64,000 nt of DNA. Source: Granulicella sp. S190. Lineage in GTDB: Bacteria; Acidobacteriota; Terriglobia; Terriglobales; Acidobacteriaceae. Below, piece by piece: positions 3,399 to 56,179 of the stretch. Below the pieces are notes generated by a model. The model made no database searches, was not told the DNA's origin, and saw nothing but the letters and a program-made list of their open reading frames with translations. The number at the start of each line of letters is the position of its first letter. The stretch's first letter is position 1. The DNA lies in assembly GCF_009766095.1 (NCBI RefSeq), contig NZ_LMUD01000047.1, positions 62,001 to 126,000 of the forward strand. The letters run 5' to 3'. The translations under genes were made by a program, and so were the position numbers.

Positions 3399-3472
3399 CC
3401 CATGGTGTAGAGGCGGCAGTGCTCGAGGTAAGCGGTCTCGTGGCTGGCGACGAGATGACGAGTCTGCTACCT
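3399..3472 (-). pseudogene. Duplicated 3' end of the DUF2252 gene (remnant)
   Basis: About 70 bp here match the 3' end of the DUF2252 gene at 4167-4240, including an identical 20-bp stretch that begins tagaggcggcagtgctcg and runs on into gaggta. Read on the minus strand, the duplicate ends LEHCRLYTMG where the intact gene ends LEHCRLYAMA and stops; the remnant reads past that point into unrelated sequence. The VOC gene at 3600-4103 lies between the two copies. This could be a decayed tandem paralogue or the scar of an insertion at the gene's 3' end. Confidence 0.7.
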
Positions 3473-3599: not shown

Positions 3600-4103
3600 T
3601 TGATGAAGATGCAACGCCGTGAAGTGCTTGGGGTGCTTACTGCCGCTGCCGGAGCGGCGCTACTGCCGGGGTCGGGATCTTTTGCAATCGCGGAGCCAAC
3701 GCCCGCCGCGAATTCTCTGCCGAAGGAAAGGGTGACTGGTATCGGCGGCTTCTTCTTTCGCGCGCATGATCCCAATGCGTTGGCGCAGTGGTATCAGGAC
3801 CACCTTGGTGTCTTCGTCACTCCGCAGAGCAAAGACGATCCAGTGTGGAATCAGCAAGCCGGACCGACGAGTTTTACGCCCTTCTCCGAGAAGAGCAGTT
3901 ATTTTGGCGACGTGACGAAGCAGTGGATGATCAACTTTCGCGTGGCCGATCTGGACAAGATGACCGGCCAGCTTGAAGCAGCGGGCATCGCGGTGAAGGT
4001 GGACCCCACGACCTATCCATACGGTCGCTTTGCACGCATTCATGATCCGGAAGGCAACCCGATCGAGCTGTGGCAGCCGCCGAATGCGGTCGCTGTGAAG
4101 TAG
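3600..4103 (+). CDS. Tat-exported VOC-superfamily (glyoxalase/bleomycin-resistance-like) protein
   Basis: A 167-residue protein. The N-terminus MMKMQRREVLGVLTAAAGAA carries a twin-arginine pair followed by a hydrophobic stretch, a probable Tat signal ending near ALPGSG/FAIAEP. The rest is one vicinal-oxygen-chelate domain: GIGGFFFRAHDPNALAQWY at the first strand-helix unit and IHDPEGNPIELWQPP at the C-terminus, where the last metal-ligand Glu normally sits. Exported VOC proteins are common in Acidobacteria; the function is not predictable. It is a single gene with a DUF2252 tail copy upstream and the intact DUF2252 gene converging downstream. Confidence 0.82.
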   Translation: MMKMQRREVLGVLTAAAGAALLPGSGSFAIAEPTPAANSLPKERVTGIGGFFFRAHDPNALAQWYQDHLGVFVTPQSKDDPVWNQQAGPTSFTPFSEKSSYFGDVTKQWMINFRVADLDKMTGQLEAAGIAVKVDPTTYPYGRFARIHDPEGNPIELWQPPNAVAVK

Positions 4104-4162: not shown

Positions 4163-5371
4163 TCAGGCCATGGCGTAGAGGCGGCAGTGCTCGAGGTATG
4201 CGGTCTCGTGGTTTGCGATGAGTTCGACGACGCTGCTCCACATCCATCCGGGGGCGTTGAGGGTCTTCGACTGGTTTCGGTTGAGTGCGGTGACCCAGCG
4301 TTTGCGGGTGGCCGCGTCCATCTGGCGGGCATGCGCTTTGCCCACGATGCCGGCGAGGTAGCTGGCGGCGGCGACGGCCTCTTCACGGGTGAGGCGGTCC
4401 ATCTCCAGCTTGAGGTCCTGAGGCATCAGCTCACGCAGGACGACGGGGCGGCCGAGGAACTTCGATGCGAGCATGCGTTCGCCCAGGTAAGGCGACAGGT
4501 TGCTCGCGCCGGTGACGACCCGCTGGGCGAAGTCCTTCGGCATGTCGGCGTTCTTTGCCGCGGGGGCTGCGGCGCGGACGGCCTCCTTGATATCGACCAG
4601 GCAGTACTCCTTGTCTTTCTTTGGGCCGACACCAAGCAGGACGGCGTAGCGAAGACGGCCCAGCGAGCTACAGCCCTTCATCCAGTAGGCGGCGTCGAGC
4701 ACGCGGATCTTCGCGTCGTCGTCGCGATGTTTCAGCGAGGTGATGAGCTTGCGTGAGGCTTCGTTCTCGAAGAGCTTTGCGATCTCCTGCTTCTCTTCGT
4801 CGGAGAGCGCCCAGAAGCGTTCGCCGAGGGGGATGGTCGGCTTGACGTCTTCGATGCGCTCCTGCGCGAGGTGGCGCCACTCGCGATTGTCAGCCTGGCG
4901 CAGAACGACTTCGATGGGGCGCAGCTTCTTTGGATCTTTCTTCACCTTCTTCGCGCGATGCGGAGTCAGCGCGGCCTGATAGCCGAGAACCATCTGCTCC
5001 ATCATGAGGGCGGTGGTGATGCCGGGGAGGTCGGAGCCGCGCGCCGAGGTGGCGAGGGAGAGGCCGAGACGGATCAGATCGTGCGCTGGATTTCCGATGA
5101 CGGTCTGGTCGAGGTCGCGGATCTCGATCTCAACTTTGCCATCGGAGTTGGCGACAGGGCCGAGGTTTCCGAGGTGGCAGTCGCCGCAGATCCAGATGGG
5201 CGGGCCCTGAGGCAGCTTACTGGCGGAGTCGGCCTTGAGCCACTCGTAGAACTGAAGGGTGTTTCCGCGTACATAGGCGTGGGCCGAACGGGCCATCTTG
5301 AGTCGTCGCCGCTCTTCGAGGACAGCCTGACGGTCTGCCGGCTTGATCTCCAGTACTTTTTTTCGCATCAA
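4163..5371 (-). CDS. DUF2252 family protein
   Basis: A 402-residue protein recognisable as DUF2252 by GDCHLGNLGPVAN, IEIRDLDQTVIGNPAHDLIR and the C-terminal AYLAGIVGKAHA-type block. These segments resemble the kinase-like (aminoglycoside phosphotransferase-type) fold, with HLGN comparable to the catalytic loop and DLDQ to the metal-binding Asp motif, but no activity is established. No signal peptide or membrane segment. The start ATG is at 5371-5369. Its 3' terminal 70 bp exist as a second, diverged copy upstream of the VOC gene. Confidence 0.85.
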   Translation of the reverse strand: MMRKKVLEIKPADRQAVLEERRRLKMARSAHAYVRGNTLQFYEWLKADSASKLPQGPPIWICGDCHLGNLGPVANSDGKVEIEIRDLDQTVIGNPAHDLIRLGLSLATSARGSDLPGITTALMMEQMVLGYQAALTPHRAKKVKKDPKKLRPIEVVLRQADNREWRHLAQERIEDVKPTIPLGERFWALSDEEKQEIAKLFENEASRKLITSLKHRDDDAKIRVLDAAYWMKGCSSLGRLRYAVLLGVGPKKDKEYCLVDIKEAVRAAAPAAKNADMPKDFAQRVVTGASNLSPYLGERMLASKFLGRPVVLRELMPQDLKLEMDRLTREEAVAAASYLAGIVGKAHARQMDAATRKRWVTALNRNQSKTLNAPGWMWSSVVELIANHETAYLEHCRLYAMA

Positions 5372-17545: not shown

Positions 17546-18925
17546 TTACCGATTCTTCGGCGGCACGGGCACGACTCGTTCCACGTCGGGGCGGCCTTCG
17601 TGGAGGATCTTGGTTTTGATTCCTTTTGCAGCTTCTTTGGCGGCGTCGCGTTGGGTTTCGGCCATGGGTTTGGGGTCGCCGACGACCAAGCGGGCAGCGC
17701 CGCGCAGGATCTTCCGAATAGGCCATGCACCTTTTTCGCCCGTGTCTTCGTTGGGGAAGAAGATCTCGCCGTTGCGCTGCTTTTCGGGGCGATAGTACCA
17801 GCGGCGGAGGAGCGAGAGGTGGTCGCTGAGGAGCGCGAGATCGTTCTCCGGCTCGGCTCTTTTTTCGAGCAGCGAGAGGACGTAAGCGGCGCGGGTCTCG
17901 GGTGAGTTCGAAGCGGTGGGTTCGCCTTCGAGCGGGACGGCCTGCAACATCAGCGGCTGCGCGAAGAGAGAGCTGCCGACGCTGGTCTGCTCGCGCACGG
18001 CCCGGACACCGAGGGTGGAGAGGTGCTCCGGGCCTACGATGCAGCCGCCGTTGAGGAGAAATAACGCGGCGTGATCGGGATGCTCCACGTCGTCTCCTGC
18101 GGCCTGCACGATGATGGCGCGCAGCCTGGGGATAGGGCGCACGATCCAGTCCGCGAGCGTCTGCGCGGCCTTCACCTTTTGCCACTGGGCGTGCAGCGAG
18201 GCGGCCTTTTCAAACTGCATCGCGGAGGAGGCCACCTCGCGCTCGAGGCCGATGGAGATGATCATGCTTTCGCCGCGAGTGTCGAAGAATTTTTTCACTG
18301 ACTCTGCTTCGACTGCATACTCCTCTGGCGTGCAGGCCTGCTTGCACGGCTCGATGCACTTCTTCATCTCGCCGTAGAGACATCCGGGATGCTCAGGATG
18401 CGGAGCGAGGTCTTCATAGCAGCGCCGAAGTTTGAAGAGGTCGAGAACCGCGTCGCAGTAGCGTTCGGCGGAGAGGCGCGAGGGGAAGGGGCCGTACATC
18501 TGGGCGAGGCCGCGCTTCGATAGTTTATTGGTGGAGTAGACCCGTGGGTGCGGGTTCTCCATCGTCATGCGAAGGAAGTATGGCGTGTGAAGCTTGAGGC
18601 GGCGGCGGGCCTCGGTGTATCCGAAGTGCGCGGCCGTCGCCTGGTAGAGGACGAGCGAGGACTCGAAGGCGGAGCCGGTGACGCAGTACTCGATGCGTGC
18701 AACTTTTTCTCGGAGGTTGAGGCGCTTGGACTGCGACTCGGGCGGATCGAGCAGACGCCGCATGCGACGCCGAAGATCGGTGGTCTGGGTGAGGTAGGGG
18801 GAGTCTTCGGCACGCGCGCCACAGAGGGCAAAGACCCCGGGGAGCGCAGGAATGGCACGGAGAATCTCGTCTGCCTGACCTGGGGTGAAGTCTAGTACGT
18901 GTTCGAAATGGAAGCTGGTTGCCAC
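17546..18925 (-). CDS. Reduced UvrC-like protein (degenerate GIY-YIG, UVR region, no RNase H-like domain)
   Basis: A 459-residue protein related to excinuclease subunit C. The N-terminal region aligns with the GIY-YIG domain (LPGVFALCGARAEDSPYLT, TTDLRRRMRRLL), but the second signature element, normally YVGK, is YLTQ. Next come the UvrC blocks MYGPFPSRLSAERYC, LFKLRRCYEDL and CLYGEMKKCIEPC, then a UVR motif (MQFEKAASLHAQWQKVK) for contact with UvrB. The protein ends about 150 residues later, without the RNase H-like second nuclease and HhH domains of full-length UvrC (about 600 residues). It may be a Cho-like single-cut nuclease or a non-catalytic relative. Confidence is high on family and low on activity. 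Confidence 0.8.
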   Translation of the reverse strand: MATSFHFEHVLDFTPGQADEILRAIPALPGVFALCGARAEDSPYLTQTTDLRRRMRRLLDPPESQSKRLNLREKVARIEYCVTGSAFESSLVLYQATAAHFGYTEARRRLKLHTPYFLRMTMENPHPRVYSTNKLSKRGLAQMYGPFPSRLSAERYCDAVLDLFKLRRCYEDLAPHPEHPGCLYGEMKKCIEPCKQACTPEEYAVEAESVKKFFDTRGESMIISIGLEREVASSAMQFEKAASLHAQWQKVKAAQTLADWIVRPIPRLRAIIVQAAGDDVEHPDHAALFLLNGGCIVGPEHLSTLGVRAVREQTSVGSSLFAQPLMLQAVPLEGEPTASNSPETRAAYVLSLLEKRAEPENDLALLSDHLSLLRRWYYRPEKQRNGEIFFPNEDTGEKGAWPIRKILRGAARLVVGDPKPMAETQRDAAKEAAKGIKTKILHEGRPDVERVVPVPPKNR

Positions 18926-18970
18926 AGAAGGAATTGTAGTCGCGCTTATCTGATGATGCGCTACTACTTA

Positions 18971-19007
18971 CGCCCCGGCGATGGTCATGCCTTCGAATGC
19001 GGATGGT
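18971..19007 (-). pseudogene. Duplicated 3' end of tldE (remnant)
   Basis: The sequence matches the last codons of tldE at 19402-19440, including an identical run ccggcgatggtcatgccttc. Read on the minus strand it still encodes the tail EGMTIAGA followed by its own TAA, but a single-base difference upstream shifts the frame relative to the intact gene. The small membrane-protein gene at 19081-19389 lies between this tail and the real tldE. Confidence 0.65.
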
Positions 19008-19080
19008 GGACGTCGCAAAATTGTAATCTTGAACGCGAATATGGGGTTAGGATCGGTGTTAGAAAAGCTTGAGAGCGCAA

Positions 19081-19389
19081 ATGTTCAACGTCGAGCCGCA
19101 AGAACAATGGGATGCCACGGAAGCTGCTGAATTTGAAGAGCACGTTTCCGAACAGCTAAGAACGTCAATTAGACAAGTCTCGTGGGCTGGCATCGCGTTG
19201 CTCTTATGCATCCTGTGCATTGTGCCTTTTCTAGCAGGTCACCAACTCCATCGGTATTGGAACCGAGCGAAATTTCTCCTCGATGTCGCAGAAGCTTTGC
19301 TCATTTGGTTCTGTATCAAAGGTGCATCTGTATGGTCTATCTGGCAGAGCGCACGTGAGGTAAGACGCGAGTCCCGCGACCCTTCCTAG
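19081..19389 (+). CDS. Small two-segment membrane protein
   Basis: From ATG 19081 the product has 102 residues (a TTG at 19069 would add four). The N-terminus is soluble and acidic (EPQEQWDATEAAEFEEHV). Two hydrophobic segments follow, AGIALLLCILCIVPFLAGH and LLDVAEALLIWFCIKGAS, then a charged tail (SAREVRRESRDPS). Family not recognised. Composition is less GC-rich than the flanking genes. It converges on tldE and lies between tldE and a duplicate of the tldE 3' end, so it looks like a recently gained islet. Confidence 0.5.
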   Translation: MFNVEPQEQWDATEAAEFEEHVSEQLRTSIRQVSWAGIALLLCILCIVPFLAGHQLHRYWNRAKFLLDVAEALLIWFCIKGASVWSIWQSAREVRRESRDPS

Positions 19390-19398
19390 GAACAAAAG

Positions 19399-20796
19399 TC
19401 AGGCTCCGGCGATGGTCATGCCTTCGATGCGCATGGTGGGAGCGGCGCTGGCCCCTCGGAAGATGAGGTCGTTGCCGATAGCGACGATGTTCTTATACAT
19501 GTCTTTCAAATTGCCGGCGATGGTGATCTCTTCGACAGGGTAGGCTAGCTCGCCGTTCTCGATCCAGAGGCCACTTGCGCCTTGCGAGTAATCGCCGGTG
19601 ACGAGGTTGACGCCGAAGCCCATGGTCTCGGTGACGTAGAGGCCGCTCTTCACGTCGCCGATGATTTGATCGGGAGTGAGCGTGCCGGCTTCGAGGAAGA
19701 AGTTGCCCGCGCCGATGCCGGGGTTGCCGGCGAGTCCGCGTGAGGCATTGCCGGTGGACTTCATGTTGAGCTTGCGTGCGGTGTAGGTGTTCGAGACGTA
19801 ATTTTTAAGGATGCCGCGTTCGACCAGCACGGTGCGGCGAGTGGGCAGGCCTTCGCCGTCGAAGGGGCGTGTGCCGAAGCCGCCGATGCCGTCGTGAACG
19901 AGGGTGCCGTCGTCGATGACGGTGATGTTTTCGCCGGCGACCTGTTCGCCCAGCATGCCGCTGAAGAAAGAGGCGTTGCGGTAGATGGCGTCGCCGTTGG
20001 CTGCGTCGAAGATGTTGCCGATGATCCCGCGTGCGATCTCGGGCGAGAAGACGACGGGAACCTTTTGCGTCTTGACCTGGCGTGCGCCGAGTCGCTTGAG
20101 GGTGCGGCGCGCAGCCTCGTGGCCGATCTCCTCAGGATTCTCGAGCTTCGTCACAGTGCGCGAGTTCGAGAACCAGTAGTTGCGCTGCATATTGCCCTTT
20201 TCATCGTGGGCGATGGGCGCAGCGGAGAAGCCGCAGTAGCTGCGGCGGTACTCGCCGGTGAAGCCGCGGGAGTTCATCAGGATCTTGTGCGAGGTGGAGG
20301 TGTCGAAGTCGCCGCCGCCGGAGTTCTGGATGCGGGTGTCGTAGGCCATGGCTGCTGCTTCGGCGCGGCGTGCGATCTCGATGCGCTCGGCTGGCGGCAT
20401 CGCGTTGACGTCGTCGAAGTAGAGGTGTTGATCCTCTTCGATCTTGCCGAACTCGTGCGCTTCGGGAAGACCGGCGAAGGGGTCTTCGCTGGTGATCTTC
20501 GCCAGCGTGATGGCTCCCTCGACGAGGCGCGCGATGCTCTCGTTTGAAAAATCGGAGGACGAAGTGCTCGCGGTACGTTGAGCTTTGCCGGAGTTGAGGA
20601 AGACCCGCAGGCCAACAGCACGCGAGCCTGATTCTTTCAGGGTTTCGACTTGTCCCAGACGCACGAGAGTGGAGAACTCGTCTCCCTCGTAGACGACGGC
20701 TTCGGCATCGGTGGCTCCCGCCTTCAGTGCCTTCGAGAGAACCTCGGAGGCGAGTTGTTGCAGGTCAGACGAGACGGTCGATGCTGGCTGGGACAA
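19399..20796 (-). CDS. tldE: Metalloprotease-like TldE/PmbA
   Basis: A 465-residue member of the TldD/PmbA (U62) family. Diagnostic stretches include LGQVETLKESGSRAVGLRVF at the N-terminus, NSRGFTGEYR, FSPEIARGIIGNIF, LVHDGIGGFGTRPFDGEG, and the tail GNDLIFRGASAAPTMRIEGM. TldE forms a heterodimeric protease with TldD that digests unfolded peptides and matures some peptide microcins in enterobacteria; the zinc site is in TldD, and TldE lacks the HExxxH motif. It is the last gene of a minus-strand operon tldD - zinc ribbon - zinc ribbon - tldE, with 25 bp between it and the preceding gene. Confidence 0.93.
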   Translation of the reverse strand: MSQPASTVSSDLQQLASEVLSKALKAGATDAEAVVYEGDEFSTLVRLGQVETLKESGSRAVGLRVFLNSGKAQRTASTSSSDFSNESIARLVEGAITLAKITSEDPFAGLPEAHEFGKIEEDQHLYFDDVNAMPPAERIEIARRAEAAAMAYDTRIQNSGGGDFDTSTSHKILMNSRGFTGEYRRSYCGFSAAPIAHDEKGNMQRNYWFSNSRTVTKLENPEEIGHEAARRTLKRLGARQVKTQKVPVVFSPEIARGIIGNIFDAANGDAIYRNASFFSGMLGEQVAGENITVIDDGTLVHDGIGGFGTRPFDGEGLPTRRTVLVERGILKNYVSNTYTARKLNMKSTGNASRGLAGNPGIGAGNFFLEAGTLTPDQIIGDVKSGLYVTETMGFGVNLVTGDYSQGASGLWIENGELAYPVEEITIAGNLKDMYKNIVAIGNDLIFRGASAAPTMRIEGMTIAGA

Positions 20797-20821: not shown

Positions 20822-21130
20822 CTAACGAACAGGGGTTGCGGAGGGACGCGCCTGACGGCCATCCGTGGCTTTGAGAAAGTAGATGCCGGCGGCGCAGTAC
20901 TCGGAGTCGCTCTTGAGCTTGTGCTCGATGTGCGTGGCGGGGCCGTCTTCGGAGCGGCGTTTGAAGAGCTTCACCGCGCCGCCGCAGCTCATGCAACGGA
21001 ACTCGGTGTCGTTGTCTTCGAGCGCAACCGCAATGGGCTTCACCTTCCAGAACGATTCGTAACCGCCGGCTGCTCTTACGCGGCGACGCTTCACTTCACA
21101 TTCGTAAAACTTTTCACGTTCGGCTGCCAT
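20822..21130 (-). CDS. Zinc-ribbon protein A (102 aa) within the tldD-tldE operon
   Basis: A 102-residue soluble protein beginning MAAEREKFYECEVKRRRVRA. The core FRCMSCGGAVKLF, then HIEHK, then DSEYCAAG gives a Cys-x2-Cys...His...Cys pattern. This resembles the N-terminal zinc-binding segment of CoiA-like proteins (Cys pair, strand, HFAH, then a late Cys); I infer zinc binding from it. It is about 60% identical by eye to the 102-residue gene directly upstream. It lies between that paralogue (104-bp gap) and tldE (25 bp), so it is probably cotranscribed with the protease genes. Function unknown. Confidence 0.75.
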   Translation of the reverse strand: MAAEREKFYECEVKRRRVRAAGGYESFWKVKPIAVALEDNDTEFRCMSCGGAVKLFKRRSEDGPATHIEHKLKSDSEYCAAGIYFLKATDGRQARPSATPVR

Positions 21131-21234
21131 AGGAGACCTCGGAGATACGGGGGTGCGGTTGAGTCGTACGGTTGGATCGTACTTTCAGGTGTCGTGCGCA
21201 CAGAGAAATAAGAGTGTTGCAGAGAGGCAGATCG

Positions 21235-21543
21235 TTACTCTACGGGGTGTGCTGAGGGCTTGGGCTCGCGTCCGTCGGTTGCCTTCTTGAAGAGGATTCC
21301 GTTGGCGCAGTACTCGGAGTCGGCCGGGGACTTGTGTTCCACGTAAGGCACGGTGCCGGCTTTGCCGTTGCGGCCCAGCAGCTTGACTTCGCCGAAGCAG
21401 TCTTTGCAGCGAAACTCGGTATCGCTATCGACGAGTGCGTCGGCGACGGGCTTGACCTTCCAGAACGGCTCGTAGCCTCCGCCGGCTCTCACGCGACGGC
21501 GTTTTACTTCGCACTCGTAGATCTTTTCGCGTTCGGCCGCCAT
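21235..21543 (-). CDS. Zinc-ribbon protein B (102 aa) within the tldD-tldE operon
   Basis: Paralogue of the downstream gene, same length and motif order: MAAEREKIYECEVKRRRVRA at the N-terminus, FRCKDCFGEVKLL, YVEHK and DSEYCANG. The start codon overlaps the tldD stop by one base (TAATG at 21545-21541 on the minus strand), a classic sign of translational coupling with tldD. Conserved positions are concentrated in the basic N-terminal strand and the zinc-site residues, while the loop between the Cys pair and the His differs. Two copies suggest tandem duplication with selection for both, or for different targets. Confidence 0.78.
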   Translation of the reverse strand: MAAEREKIYECEVKRRRVRAGGGYEPFWKVKPVADALVDSDTEFRCKDCFGEVKLLGRNGKAGTVPYVEHKSPADSEYCANGILFKKATDGREPKPSAHPVE

Positions 21544-44448: not shown

Positions 44449-44477
44449 AAGCCCGACTAAAAAGAAAAGGTATAAAA

Positions 44478-44525
44478 GTCACGAAGTGACCGCTGCCCGC
44501 GCAGGGCGCCCGTCCGGCAGGACAT
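44478..44525. repeat. REP-like dispersed element, copy 2
   Basis: Begins GTCACGAAGTGACCGC, has a GC-rich middle (CCCGCGCAGGGCGCC) and ends CGTCCGGCAGGACA. Located between convergent fhs and the EamA-family transporter, close to both 3' ends, as in copy 1. Confidence 0.82.
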
Positions 44526-49293: not shown

Positions 49294-49843
49294 ATTCTCT
49301 CCTAAGCTGATCAGGAGGCTAGACCCGCTTCCCTAAGCTGTCAAGGAGAGTTTTTGCGCAATAACAAAGGCGCTCGCAAAATCATCCACTCTCAGACCAA
49401 CGGGAGGACCAGAAAGCTTCACTCGCGACCACAAGGGACACAAGTCACGAAGTGACCGCACTCCGCGCAGGAGCCCGTCCGGCAGGACAAGTCTTAGACA
49501 GCTTCTAAGGGGTTACTTCAATAAGGTATACTCACCGCCAAAGGCAGAAGACCCATGAAATCGCTGTTCCTTACAGCCCGGAGACCCCGATTCGCAGCTG
49601 CTCTGTGCTGCTCCAGGCGTCACCAGATACCGCGCCGCCACCTCCGCGTCCTGCCCAGCCTCACGCGACCTAGTCTCTTCGCCGGCGACTAAGCTCGAAG
49701 CCCCTCCAGCCGGCGAAGTCCTCGCCATCAGCGCACCCGTTCTCTCTGCAACCACAGAGCACCGTGCCTCTCCTCCGCATAAAGAAGGAAAATCCGGTAA
49801 GAACGGTAAGACCAAACGCACCGCTGCCTAAAGGAGAGACCGC
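49294..49843. other. 550-bp intergenic region with REP element and a possible frameshifted small gene
   Basis: Apart from the REP-like element (49444-49490), the + strand carries coding-like pieces in different frames. ATG 49555 opens MKSLFLTARRPRF but stops about 135 bp later. A separate frame gives TTEHRASPPHKEGKSGKN and KTKRTAA* just before the aminotransferase gene, with no start. This reads like the remains of a small secreted or Lys-rich protein disrupted by frameshifts, but may be chance in GC-rich sequence. The minus-strand frame at 49513-49821 looks like a shadow. Confidence 0.3.
49444..49490. repeat. REP-like dispersed element, copy 3
   Basis: GTCACGAAGTGACCGC followed by CCGCGCAGGAGCCC and GTCCGGCAGGACAA. 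It lies in the 550-bp gap between padR (start at 49293) and the aminotransferase (start at 49844), i.e. a divergent intergenic region, unlike copies 1 and 2. Confidence 0.82.
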
Positions 49844-53572: not shown

Positions 53573-56179
53573 TTACGGCAGCAAGCCAAACACTGCCACC
53601 CCAGTCTGCGTTCCCACATACACCTTGCCGTTCACTATCATCGGCGTGATGAACTTGTTCCCATTGCCGAATGCATCTCGACCGCCCGTCGCCTGACCGG
53701 TGTTATACAGCTCATGGCTCAGGTCACTGGCGTCATAAGCATGCAGAACTCCACGGCTCCCAAGGCCCGACTCCAGCGTCCACACAATCCCATTCTGCGT
53801 TCCATTCGCCGAGATCCCAGGCGAAGTTCCGGGATACGGAAAGGTGTTCGCCGACTGGCTCGACGGTGTAGTACCCAACTGTGCATTCACCAGCGAAAAC
53901 GCCTTCAGCGAAGCGCTCACTGGCCCGTAGTAGATCGTGCCGTTGAAGTAGGCGGGAGTGGAGAAAACCGTACCACCCAACTGGCCGTTTATCTGCTGGT
54001 AAAGGTTGCTGTCCTGGGGATTGCTCGCCGGATTGAACTTGCCCATATTGTCCCGGTTGGCCAGGTAGATATTTTGGTCCTTGCCCGCGCCCACGATCAG
54101 GTGCTGCACATCTCCATGCGCATCCGTCTGGTCAGGCAGCAGCAGCTCGCCCCCCGACCCTAAGTCGAGATCGCCATTCGACTCCGTCTTCGTGTTGTAC
54201 ATCTCGAAGTAGTCGGCCACTGCCAGCTGCCCGTTGGTCGACAGCTTCAACATTGCGTTGCCGTAGTCACCCTTTGCAGGGAAGCCGTTCGTGTCGAAGG
54301 TCGTGTCGAAGGTACCGTTCGCATCCAGTAAGTAGATATTCCCGCTGCTGTCTGCAGCCAGCCCATCGCCGCTCATCCAGATCGAACCCTCCTGGCCATT
54401 CGGCGTCACATTCAACACCTGCGTCTGTTGCAGTGTCGACTCGCTATATCCCATCACCCATCCCGTATAAAGTCCGTTATCGCAATGGGACGTCCACCCC
54501 ATGTAGATCGCTCCATTGGCCAGCAAGAGAGCCGCACGCTCTGCATACTGCGACGGATCGAAGACCACTATCCCGTTCTGCGTGTTGTCGCCCAGCCCTG
54601 GATAGCTCGCCGTAATCTCCGTCGGACTACCGCTAATCTCCGCGCCCGTCGTTACATCCAGCGCATGCAGCCTCTGGTGATAACTTCCTCCGCCATCCTT
54701 GCTCATCCCCACCGCGAACAGCGTCCCATTCGGCCCTTGTGCGCGGTCGATCACCGGCGTTGAAGTAATTCCGATCTCTGGCGAAATCTGGCCGCACCCG
54801 TGATCGTCGCTCGGCGTCTCGCCGTTCCCGATCACAGAGACCTGCCAAAGCTGAACACCGCTGTCGGCATCGAACGCATACACGCTGCCGTGTTCGGTGG
54901 CCACGTACAACACGTTATGGAGCTGGCCGCCGATCGGCACATTCGCAAGATAGAGCGGCTCCGCATCCACCTTGCCGTCCACTGTATCGAACCCAATCTT
55001 CCCAAACAGTGTCGAGTTCACGTTCGTCAGCGTCAGAATCGTCTCCTTCGCATTCAAACCATCCCGCGCCACATCGTAATGATAGGTAGTCACGTCCGGC
55101 GCCGCTGTCGTCGCAGCAGCCTGCACCGTCAACTCTAGAGTCACCGAATGATCCAGCCCCGCGGACGTCCCCGCGAACACCACCGTCGAGCTGCTCTGTG
55201 CTGCCGTCAACGCTGCCGTCAGCGTCGTACTCTGCGTCACACCCGGAGCCAGCGTCAACGTCGTAGGATTCGCAGTCACTCCACTCGGAAGCCCCGTAAT
55301 CGTGATCGCCACCGTCCCGCTGAACGCATTGACTCCGTTCGCCGTAAGATTCACCGCCATCCCAGCTCCACCGGCCACCAGCGTCAGTGGAGTCGGCGAA
55401 AGCGTCAGCGTGTAATCAGGCTGCGGCCCCGCAATCGTCAGCGCCACGGTAGCCGAGTGGCTCAGCGCCCCCGAAGTCCCAGTCAATGTCAGCGTAGCCG
55501 CGCCCGCAGCCACGCCCGGCGCCGCAACCAGCGTCACATGCTGTGCTGTCCCCGGAGTCAGGCTCAGCGTCGCCGGCTCTGCGGTCACTCCCGTTGGCAG
55601 ACCCGAGATCGCAACCGACACTGCCCCCGCAAACGAGTTCGTCGGAACCGCATTCACACTAATCTGCTGTGTCGCCCCGCCCGACACCAGCGTAAGCGAG
55701 CCCGGCATCACCGCCAGCGAAAAATCAGCTCCCGGAGGATTTGTAGCCGCAGCCACCGTCACCGCGACCGAAGTCGTGTGACTCAGCGTGCTCGAAACCC
55801 CATTAATCACCACTGTCGAAGCCCCCGCCGCCACACCCGCACCGGCGGTCAGGGTAACGCTCTGCGCCGTCCCCGGAGTCAGGCTCAACATCGCCGGCTG
55901 TGCCGTCACGCCCGGCGGCAGGCCGGAAAGATCCACCGTCACCATCCCCGTAAACCCGCCCGACGGTGTAGCCGTCACACTCACCTGCTGTCCCTCACCA
56001 CCAGGGGAGAGCGTCAAACTCGCAGGCGTAGCCGCCAGCGTAAAGTCCCCCACAACCGAAGGCGTACCCACCGTGCTGCCCGTATCCGTGCCGCCGCCCT
56101 TGCTTCCACCGCAAGCGACCAGCCCCACGCAAACCAGCAAACTCACGCACCCCGCCAATGCCTTCTTGCAGAAACTCAT
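53573..56179 (-). CDS. Lipoprotein with three Ig-like repeats and a PQQ-type beta-propeller
   Basis: About 868 residues from ATG 56179 (GGGGGA upstream; a frame to 56248 exists but puts the signal peptide inside). Lipobox: CVSLLVCVGLVACGGSKGGG with the acylated Cys at residue 23. Residues about 50-370 hold three tandem Ig-like domains of about 100 residues, each starting D-F/Y-x-L and containing a GLPxGVTAxP block (GLPPGVTAQP, GLPTGVTAEP, GLPSGVTANP). The remainder resembles a quinoprotein-like propeller (VLYVATEHGSVYAFDADSGV, GTPSQ-type strands). Probably surface-exposed, for adhesion or polymer binding. Enzyme activity is not shown. Confidence 0.8.
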   Translation of the reverse strand: MSFCKKALAGCVSLLVCVGLVACGGSKGGGTDTGSTVGTPSVVGDFTLAATPASLTLSPGGEGQQVSVTATPSGGFTGMVTVDLSGLPPGVTAQPAMLSLTPGTAQSVTLTAGAGVAAGASTVVINGVSSTLSHTTSVAVTVAAATNPPGADFSLAVMPGSLTLVSGGATQQISVNAVPTNSFAGAVSVAISGLPTGVTAEPATLSLTPGTAQHVTLVAAPGVAAGAATLTLTGTSGALSHSATVALTIAGPQPDYTLTLSPTPLTLVAGGAGMAVNLTANGVNAFSGTVAITITGLPSGVTANPTTLTLAPGVTQSTTLTAALTAAQSSSTVVFAGTSAGLDHSVTLELTVQAAATTAAPDVTTYHYDVARDGLNAKETILTLTNVNSTLFGKIGFDTVDGKVDAEPLYLANVPIGGQLHNVLYVATEHGSVYAFDADSGVQLWQVSVIGNGETPSDDHGCGQISPEIGITSTPVIDRAQGPNGTLFAVGMSKDGGGSYHQRLHALDVTTGAEISGSPTEITASYPGLGDNTQNGIVVFDPSQYAERAALLLANGAIYMGWTSHCDNGLYTGWVMGYSESTLQQTQVLNVTPNGQEGSIWMSGDGLAADSSGNIYLLDANGTFDTTFDTNGFPAKGDYGNAMLKLSTNGQLAVADYFEMYNTKTESNGDLDLGSGGELLLPDQTDAHGDVQHLIVGAGKDQNIYLANRDNMGKFNPASNPQDSNLYQQINGQLGGTVFSTPAYFNGTIYYGPVSASLKAFSLVNAQLGTTPSSQSANTFPYPGTSPGISANGTQNGIVWTLESGLGSRGVLHAYDASDLSHELYNTGQATGGRDAFGNGNKFITPMIVNGKVYVGTQTGVAVFGLLP

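Follow-up and report, generated by a model that had tools for sequence, protein, structure and literature searches.

Organization of the tldE/uvrC-like locus

The locus of interest lies in a 64-kb stretch of DNA (the window, meaning the whole stretch that was analysed) from a genome of 5.05 Mb in 54 contigs, designated G000 in comparisons with other genomes of the genus. A small membrane-protein gene, referred to here as the islet gene, stands between a tldE-type gene and a UvrC-like gene and has a tldE 3' end on each side, as listed below.

17546-18925, minus strand: UvrC-like gene that follows tldE, 459 aa, GTG start (TIGR00194, E = 5e-24, residues 22-253)
18926-18967, minus strand: spacer and promoter of the UvrC-like gene, with TACAAT at 18933-18938, 7 nt ahead of the GTG start
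18968-19009, minus strand: displaced second tldE 3' end, a 38-bp match plus TAA, outside the tldE translation and with a one-base insertion
19010-19016, no strand: inner junction, where the islet right flank TTTTGCGAC meets the displaced tldE tail; GCGAC occurs again at the spacer end
19081-19389, plus strand: islet gene, encoding a small membrane protein of 102 aa without a Pfam match; five other genus genomes have homologues at this junction
19399-20796, minus strand: tldE/pmbA-type gene (Pfam PmbA_TldD domains 1-3, E down to 1e-81)

All three PmbA/TldD domains are present in tldE, whose coding end ..GGAGCC-TGA closes with the stop codon at 19399-19401. Upon comparison of the window with itself, the working tail of this gene (copy 1, 19403-19439) was found repeated 0.43 kb downstream at 18972-19009, over 38 columns with 92% identity (E = 1e-6), so that the two tails are nearly identical; the far copy ends with a TAA of its own at 18968-18970 and, owing to the one-base insertion, is not frame-perfect. 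The tldE tail aligned to its own downstream gap with a score of 58, against a maximum of 24 in 1000 shuffles of the gap. Both tails are observed directly, and an earlier note on this DNA had placed them correctly.

Only five local repeats of comparable strength with a spacing below 6 kb were detected in the window, namely tandem paralogues at 20882/21295, a pair at 55436/55757, a DUF2252 tail, a 58-bp pair and the tldE tail. The copies of the 58-bp direct repeat (44467-44524 and 49433-49489) are 86% identical and lie 5 kb apart. The region between tldE and tldD (20822-21543) holds two tandem paralogues of about 102 aa, and similar tandem matches are seen beside tldE in many relatives.

The islet gene, which has an ATG start and is convergent with tldE, is the sole open reading frame between the two tldE tails. 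The description of it in the earlier note, as a 102-residue membrane-protein gene of lower GC content, is borne out by a GC fraction of 0.51 (0.62 for tldE and 0.63 for the uvrC-like gene) and by the hydropathy of the protein, which peaks over residues 29-57. A Pfam search with the protein gave no match, and the islet segment has no further copy in its own genome, where just short matches of 16-23 bases were returned.

Matches of the UvrC-like protein to UvrC models are confined to their N-terminal half and fall below the model cut-offs, and its Pfam search was likewise without a match. A TANNNT hexamer, mostly TACAAT, stands 5-8 nt ahead of the uvrC-like start in 39 of 41 genus junctions, whatever lies upstream. 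In leaderless genes such spacing marks a -10 element whose transcripts begin at the start codon or close to it. The uvrC-like gene seems to be leaderless on this pattern, and at junctions where the tldE/uvrC-like gap is 17-28 bp the rest of the promoter would have to lie within the end of tldE. An insertion sparing both genes would then have to hit a few bases or duplicate the tldE tail; given a -10-like element so close to the start in nearly all junctions, there is little room for it.

Variation of the junction across the genus

The tldE/uvrC-like junction was measured in 41 of the 62 genus genomes, the remaining 21 being left out as not retrieved, split over contigs or not collinear. Gap sizes range from 17 to 2289 bp (13 junctions of at most 60 bp, 8 of 61-300 bp and 20 above 300 bp), and the gap is observed to be a hotspot at which genus genomes carry different small genes or none. 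The junction of G007 (L013) appears, by eye, to contain a PIN/VapC-like reading frame, and toxin-antitoxin genes may use the site.

Strains in which tldE directly precedes the UvrC-like gene, which the earlier note had thought worth looking for, do exist. In G031, G025, G208 and G264 tldE is followed by a 43-bp gap and then by the UvrC-like gene, compared with 473 bp in the window, and the window locus has gained sequence that is absent from this islet-free allele. The 43-bp gap reads TAA-GTTGTAGCGCAT..GACTACAAT, with a few differences from the sequence after the far copy of the window, which continues TAA-GTAGTAGCGCATCATCAGATAAG..GACTACAAT much as the sequence does after the sole tldE end of these four relatives. 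Since the far copy runs into the uvrC-like spacer and promoter exactly as in the islet-free relatives, we take it to be a true tldE end and not the relic of a paralogue.

Clean islet carriers are equally a matter of direct observation: G348, G014, G322, G422 and G381 have the islet gene at the same junction and no tail copy, and among the 41 junctions the long tldE tail copy is found only in the window genome. The flank TTTTGCGAC is common to the clean carriers, where it stands directly ahead of TACAAT, and the right end of the window islet, ..AATTTTGCGAC, matches the flank in G014, G322 and G381. The sequence GCGAC occurs both at the end of the islet flank and at the end of the spacer, a match of about 5 bp that could be due to chance.

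A different islet, of the DUF4440 family (family match in G002), occupies this junction in G002 and G377. It ends with a short piece left over from the former tldE end, about 6-12 nt and a stop codon (GGCGCG-TAA-GTTGTAGCGC), followed by the same spacer; the length of the repeated tail is therefore not fixed.

Among G348, G422 and G381 the pN of the islet gene (0.11-0.18) is well below its pS (0.62-0.65), and in pairs with the window genome pS reaches 0.80-0.84, which is near saturation. The islet tree separates G000, G014 and G322 from G348, G422 and G381 with 100/100 support; it does not contradict the species tree and is compatible with vertical descent. As judged from these sequences, the islet gene is a kept gene and is probably older than the tldE tail copy. 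The islet reading frame is interrupted by a stop in G014, and in G322 the match is split over two frames.

The tree built from tldD, tldE and the uvrC-like gene together is ((G422,G381),(G348,(G000,((G377,G002),((G322,G014),(islet-free four)))))), in which the branch parting G348 from G000 and the rest has 84/86 support and seven of nine inner branches are starred; the single-gene trees leave G000 and several other genomes unresolved. The last 300 bp of tldE are 87-92% identical to nine of 11 close genomes, 88% to G422 and 83% to G381. Although tldE offers continuous homology, scanning tldD-tldE and the uvrC-like gene by sliding identity made no donor tract visible, so that homologous exchange on the tldE side is unproved.

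Displaced gene tails elsewhere in the genome

A second arrangement of the same kind, at DUF2252 and a VOC gene, had been pointed out in the earlier note and is real.

4163-5371, minus strand: DUF2252 gene with its working tail at 4168-4237 (Pfam DUF2252, E = 2e-72)
3603-4103, plus strand: VOC/glyoxalase-like gene between the DUF2252 tails (Pfam Glyoxalase, E = 4e-8)
3400-3468, minus strand: displaced DUF2252 tail without a stop codon, a repeat of 4168-4237 (70 bp, 87%)

At the DUF2252 loci of G002, G014, G025 and G031, no VOC gene (tblastn) and no dehydrogenase gene was found within 1.5 kb downstream.

The window genome was surveyed over 2.37 Mb (six contigs or parts of contigs, 47% of the genome) with home-made gene calls from a simple hexamer script. 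Out of 105 short local direct repeats, six join the 3' end of a gene to a copy in non-coding sequence, and one does so for a gene start. In a Smith-Waterman test of 1677 genes, each tail was compared with the 3 kb downstream at a score of at least 42, and gene heads were compared with their upstream sequence as the mirror. The matches numbered six for tail to downstream, one for tail to upstream, none for head to upstream, three for head to downstream (C1:65795 among them) and one for a tail to the downstream sequence of another gene. Two candidates that are counted in the raw numbers were dropped from the tails: C1:28288/29570, one of the raw six, is a tandem paralogue with similar ends, and C42:215170, from the repeat scan, reads as a dispersed intergenic repeat.

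Five non-paralogous displaced tails were retained, belonging to tldE, DUF2252, lepB, a thioredoxin-reductase-like gene (trxR, assigned by eye) and an AraC-type regulator. Duplicated gene tails thus do occur beyond the two first noticed, and every copy lies downstream of its own gene, although five downstream against none in the mirror is a modest result (1 in 32 by sign test). The genes enclosed by the five tail pairs encode a membrane protein, a VOC protein, a secreted protein (signal peptide recognized by eye, no Pfam match), a cadmium-transporter-like protein and a SnoaL-like protein, and the tails are 29-76 bp long with no common sequence.

The lepB tails (76 bp, 92%) match each other at 70 of 76 positions and any relative at best at 67 of 74 aligned positions, which fits duplication within the lineage just as well. 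While lepB is present in 12 of 12 close genomes, the 420 bp read after it differ between most of them, the pairs G014 and G322, G208 and G264, and G025 and G031 being alike; the lepB downstream region (L226-L237) is another accessory-gene hotspot. A second nearby lepB tail match was obtained in the window genome only, with a 140-base query to which remnants that are short or diverged would be invisible. G422 has a single match to the lepB islet protein, a fairly distant one (33%), and weak matches come from G132 and G216. No close orthologue of the AraC-type regulator was found in 11 close genomes (best 39%).

Origin of the displaced tldE end

The second tldE tail is probably a scar, left when an islet-bearing and an islet-free version of the locus recombined imprecisely by homology-assisted illegitimate recombination. 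Two versions of the tldE/uvrC-like locus, with and without the membrane-protein islet, would have recombined out of register, one side being anchored by homology in tldE or the uvrC-like gene. On the other side, the right flank of the islet, ending in GCGAC, would have been joined to the tldE tail of the other allele through a few matching bases. In the product, tldE would be in working order and be followed by the islet and a displaced tldE end, and the next gene would have its promoter intact. We infer the order of these events, which side was foreign, the microhomology at the joint and selective retention of tldE together with the downstream promoter. Genes for Ku and ComEC are present in the window genome and would allow end joining and DNA uptake, as permissive conditions only. 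Several observations weigh against this account: sliding identity shows no donor tract, the two lepB tails are closer to each other than to any relative, the 39 Acidobacteriaceae tldE neighbourhoods contain no non-paralogous displaced tail, and the matching bases at the joint are few enough to be due to chance.

The earlier note had proposed a recurrent gain of accessory genes at gene 3' ends that exploits or produces 3'-end duplications. Recurrence is upheld by the five tails, all downstream, and by the empty mirror; duplication as the route by which the islet was gained is not, as there are five carriers without a tail copy. Because the islet occurs at the same junction without the repeat in those genomes and its tree fits vertical descent, the tail duplication probably did not bring the islet gene in, and the copy looks like a by-product of recombination rather than a tool for gene capture.

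A rather unlikely alternative is an ancient duplication of the tail, in which the ancestor of the clade had tldE, islet, tail copy, spacer and uvrC-like gene in this order, a deletion between the tails gave rise to the islet-free sisters, and the window retains the older state. The position of G000 outside (G377,G002), (G322,G014) and the islet-free four suits it, as do the islets in both outgroup genomes, G422 and G381; the species tree allows the grouping of G000 with G014 and G322 in the islet tree, and deletion between the tails yields exactly the islet-free sequence. However, G322 and G014, with the islet but no tail copy, require a further loss, deletion is poorly served by a 38-bp repeat whose copies differ, and the origin of the tail copy is left unexplained, so that this account departs from recombination out of register in timing only. 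Whether out-of-register recombination took place in the lineage or an older duplication was resolved by deletion in the sisters, the copy is a scar.

It is very unlikely that a circular or integrase-borne element was inserted at gene 3' ends, regenerated each tail and has since lost its integrase. The layout of working tail, cargo and old tail does match that of the circle model put forward for rhs tips in the accessible passages of PMC2935791, and all five copies lie downstream, but translations read by eye revealed no recombinase frame between the tails at the five sites, and the tails vary from 29 to 76 bp around no common core, with one-gene cargo at most sites. At the tldE site itself there is a long copy in G000, a short remnant in G002 and G377 and none in five carriers, which have the tldE islet at the same place. 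An integrase island was rejected on the variation in tail length and the missing recombinase.

Decay of tandem paralogues, by which each far tail would be all that is left of a second gene copy, is the least credible account. The genome does have tandem paralogues whose ends are similar (C1:28288/29570), but the 18971 copy is not the end of a once-full tldE paralogue, a possibility raised earlier and largely refuted by the single match per genome (tldE at E <= 1e-100 is found once in 59 of 62 genus genomes, not at all in three and twice in none), and the far tail stands directly beside the spacer known from the islet-free relatives.

Relation to known systems

Integrative islands at gene 3' ends, such as e14 in icd and the tRNA islands, typically leave a working tail beside the insert and the displaced old tail on its far side. 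The tldE locus differs from them in having no integrase, no fixed core and a one-gene cargo.

Homology-facilitated illegitimate recombination has been invoked for the type VI secretion effector-immunity loci of Vibrio (Kirchberger 2017, PMC5361080). As described in the available passages of that paper, incoming DNA is anchored by a shared part of the gene, one or more genes are added downstream and the old 3' end is pushed further down, much as proposed here. In those loci the working C-terminus changes to that of a new toxin, with immunity genes retained, whereas at tldE the tail sequence is nearly the same and a small, unrelated gene forms the cargo. The displacement of C-terminal tips at rhs loci, with its circle model (Jackson 2009, PMC2935791), likewise gives an intact gene, then cargo, then the dissociated old gene end; in the excerpts consulted, however, the tips are non-homologous, the arrays long and the family specialised, in contrast to the single scars at housekeeping genes reported here. 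Hosts of the Rhs, T6SS and CDI type are polymorphic toxins with an exchangeable C-terminus, a feature absent from tldE as a PmbA/TldD protein. Small variable segments between strains have also been attributed to one-sided homology with illegitimate joining (Touzain 2010, PMC2884548, in part), and these are alike in the proposed mode of joining, although retained copies of gene ends are not described in the passages available.

Going by the accessible parts of these sources, the kind of scar is already known from Rhs and T6SS loci. What is new is its occurrence at ordinary housekeeping genes, where it can be counted against controls; a partial literature search, covering titles and the starts of abstracts, returned no prior description of displaced tails of housekeeping genes.

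Displaced tails as a possible record of gene gain

Little record exists of how single accessory genes come to lie between core genes when no mobile element is involved, since a clean exchange leaves no trace; displaced gene tails are one, and it can be counted against controls. For the window, this is mainly a well-documented case of an ordinary process at an unusual class of host gene. Somewhat speculatively, gene 3' ends might be general landing pads for accessory genes, in that the next gene's promoter would start at the upstream tail or within it and surviving insertions would leave a tail on each side; we regard this wider reading as doubtful. If true, displaced tails would allow small-gene gain or allele exchange at ordinary core genes to be counted across the whole genome, and a preference for 3' over 5' ends would be built into such a record; this bias, should it hold in many genomes, would tell which junctions tolerate new genes and why.

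The same Smith-Waterman test was applied to 78 of 79 loci, 39 of them tldE neighbourhoods of Acidobacteriaceae and 39 from other groups. No non-paralogous displaced tail was found in the 39 Acidobacteriaceae neighbourhoods (564 genes), whose four tail matches comprise three tandem paralogues beside tldE and one local repeat, and the 39 loci from other groups (462 genes) gave one tail match. The rate of displaced tails may be peculiar to the window genome, or simply low. A strong tail-to-downstream match near a gene end (69 bp, score 93) was seen in L318, a contig of Shewanella sp.
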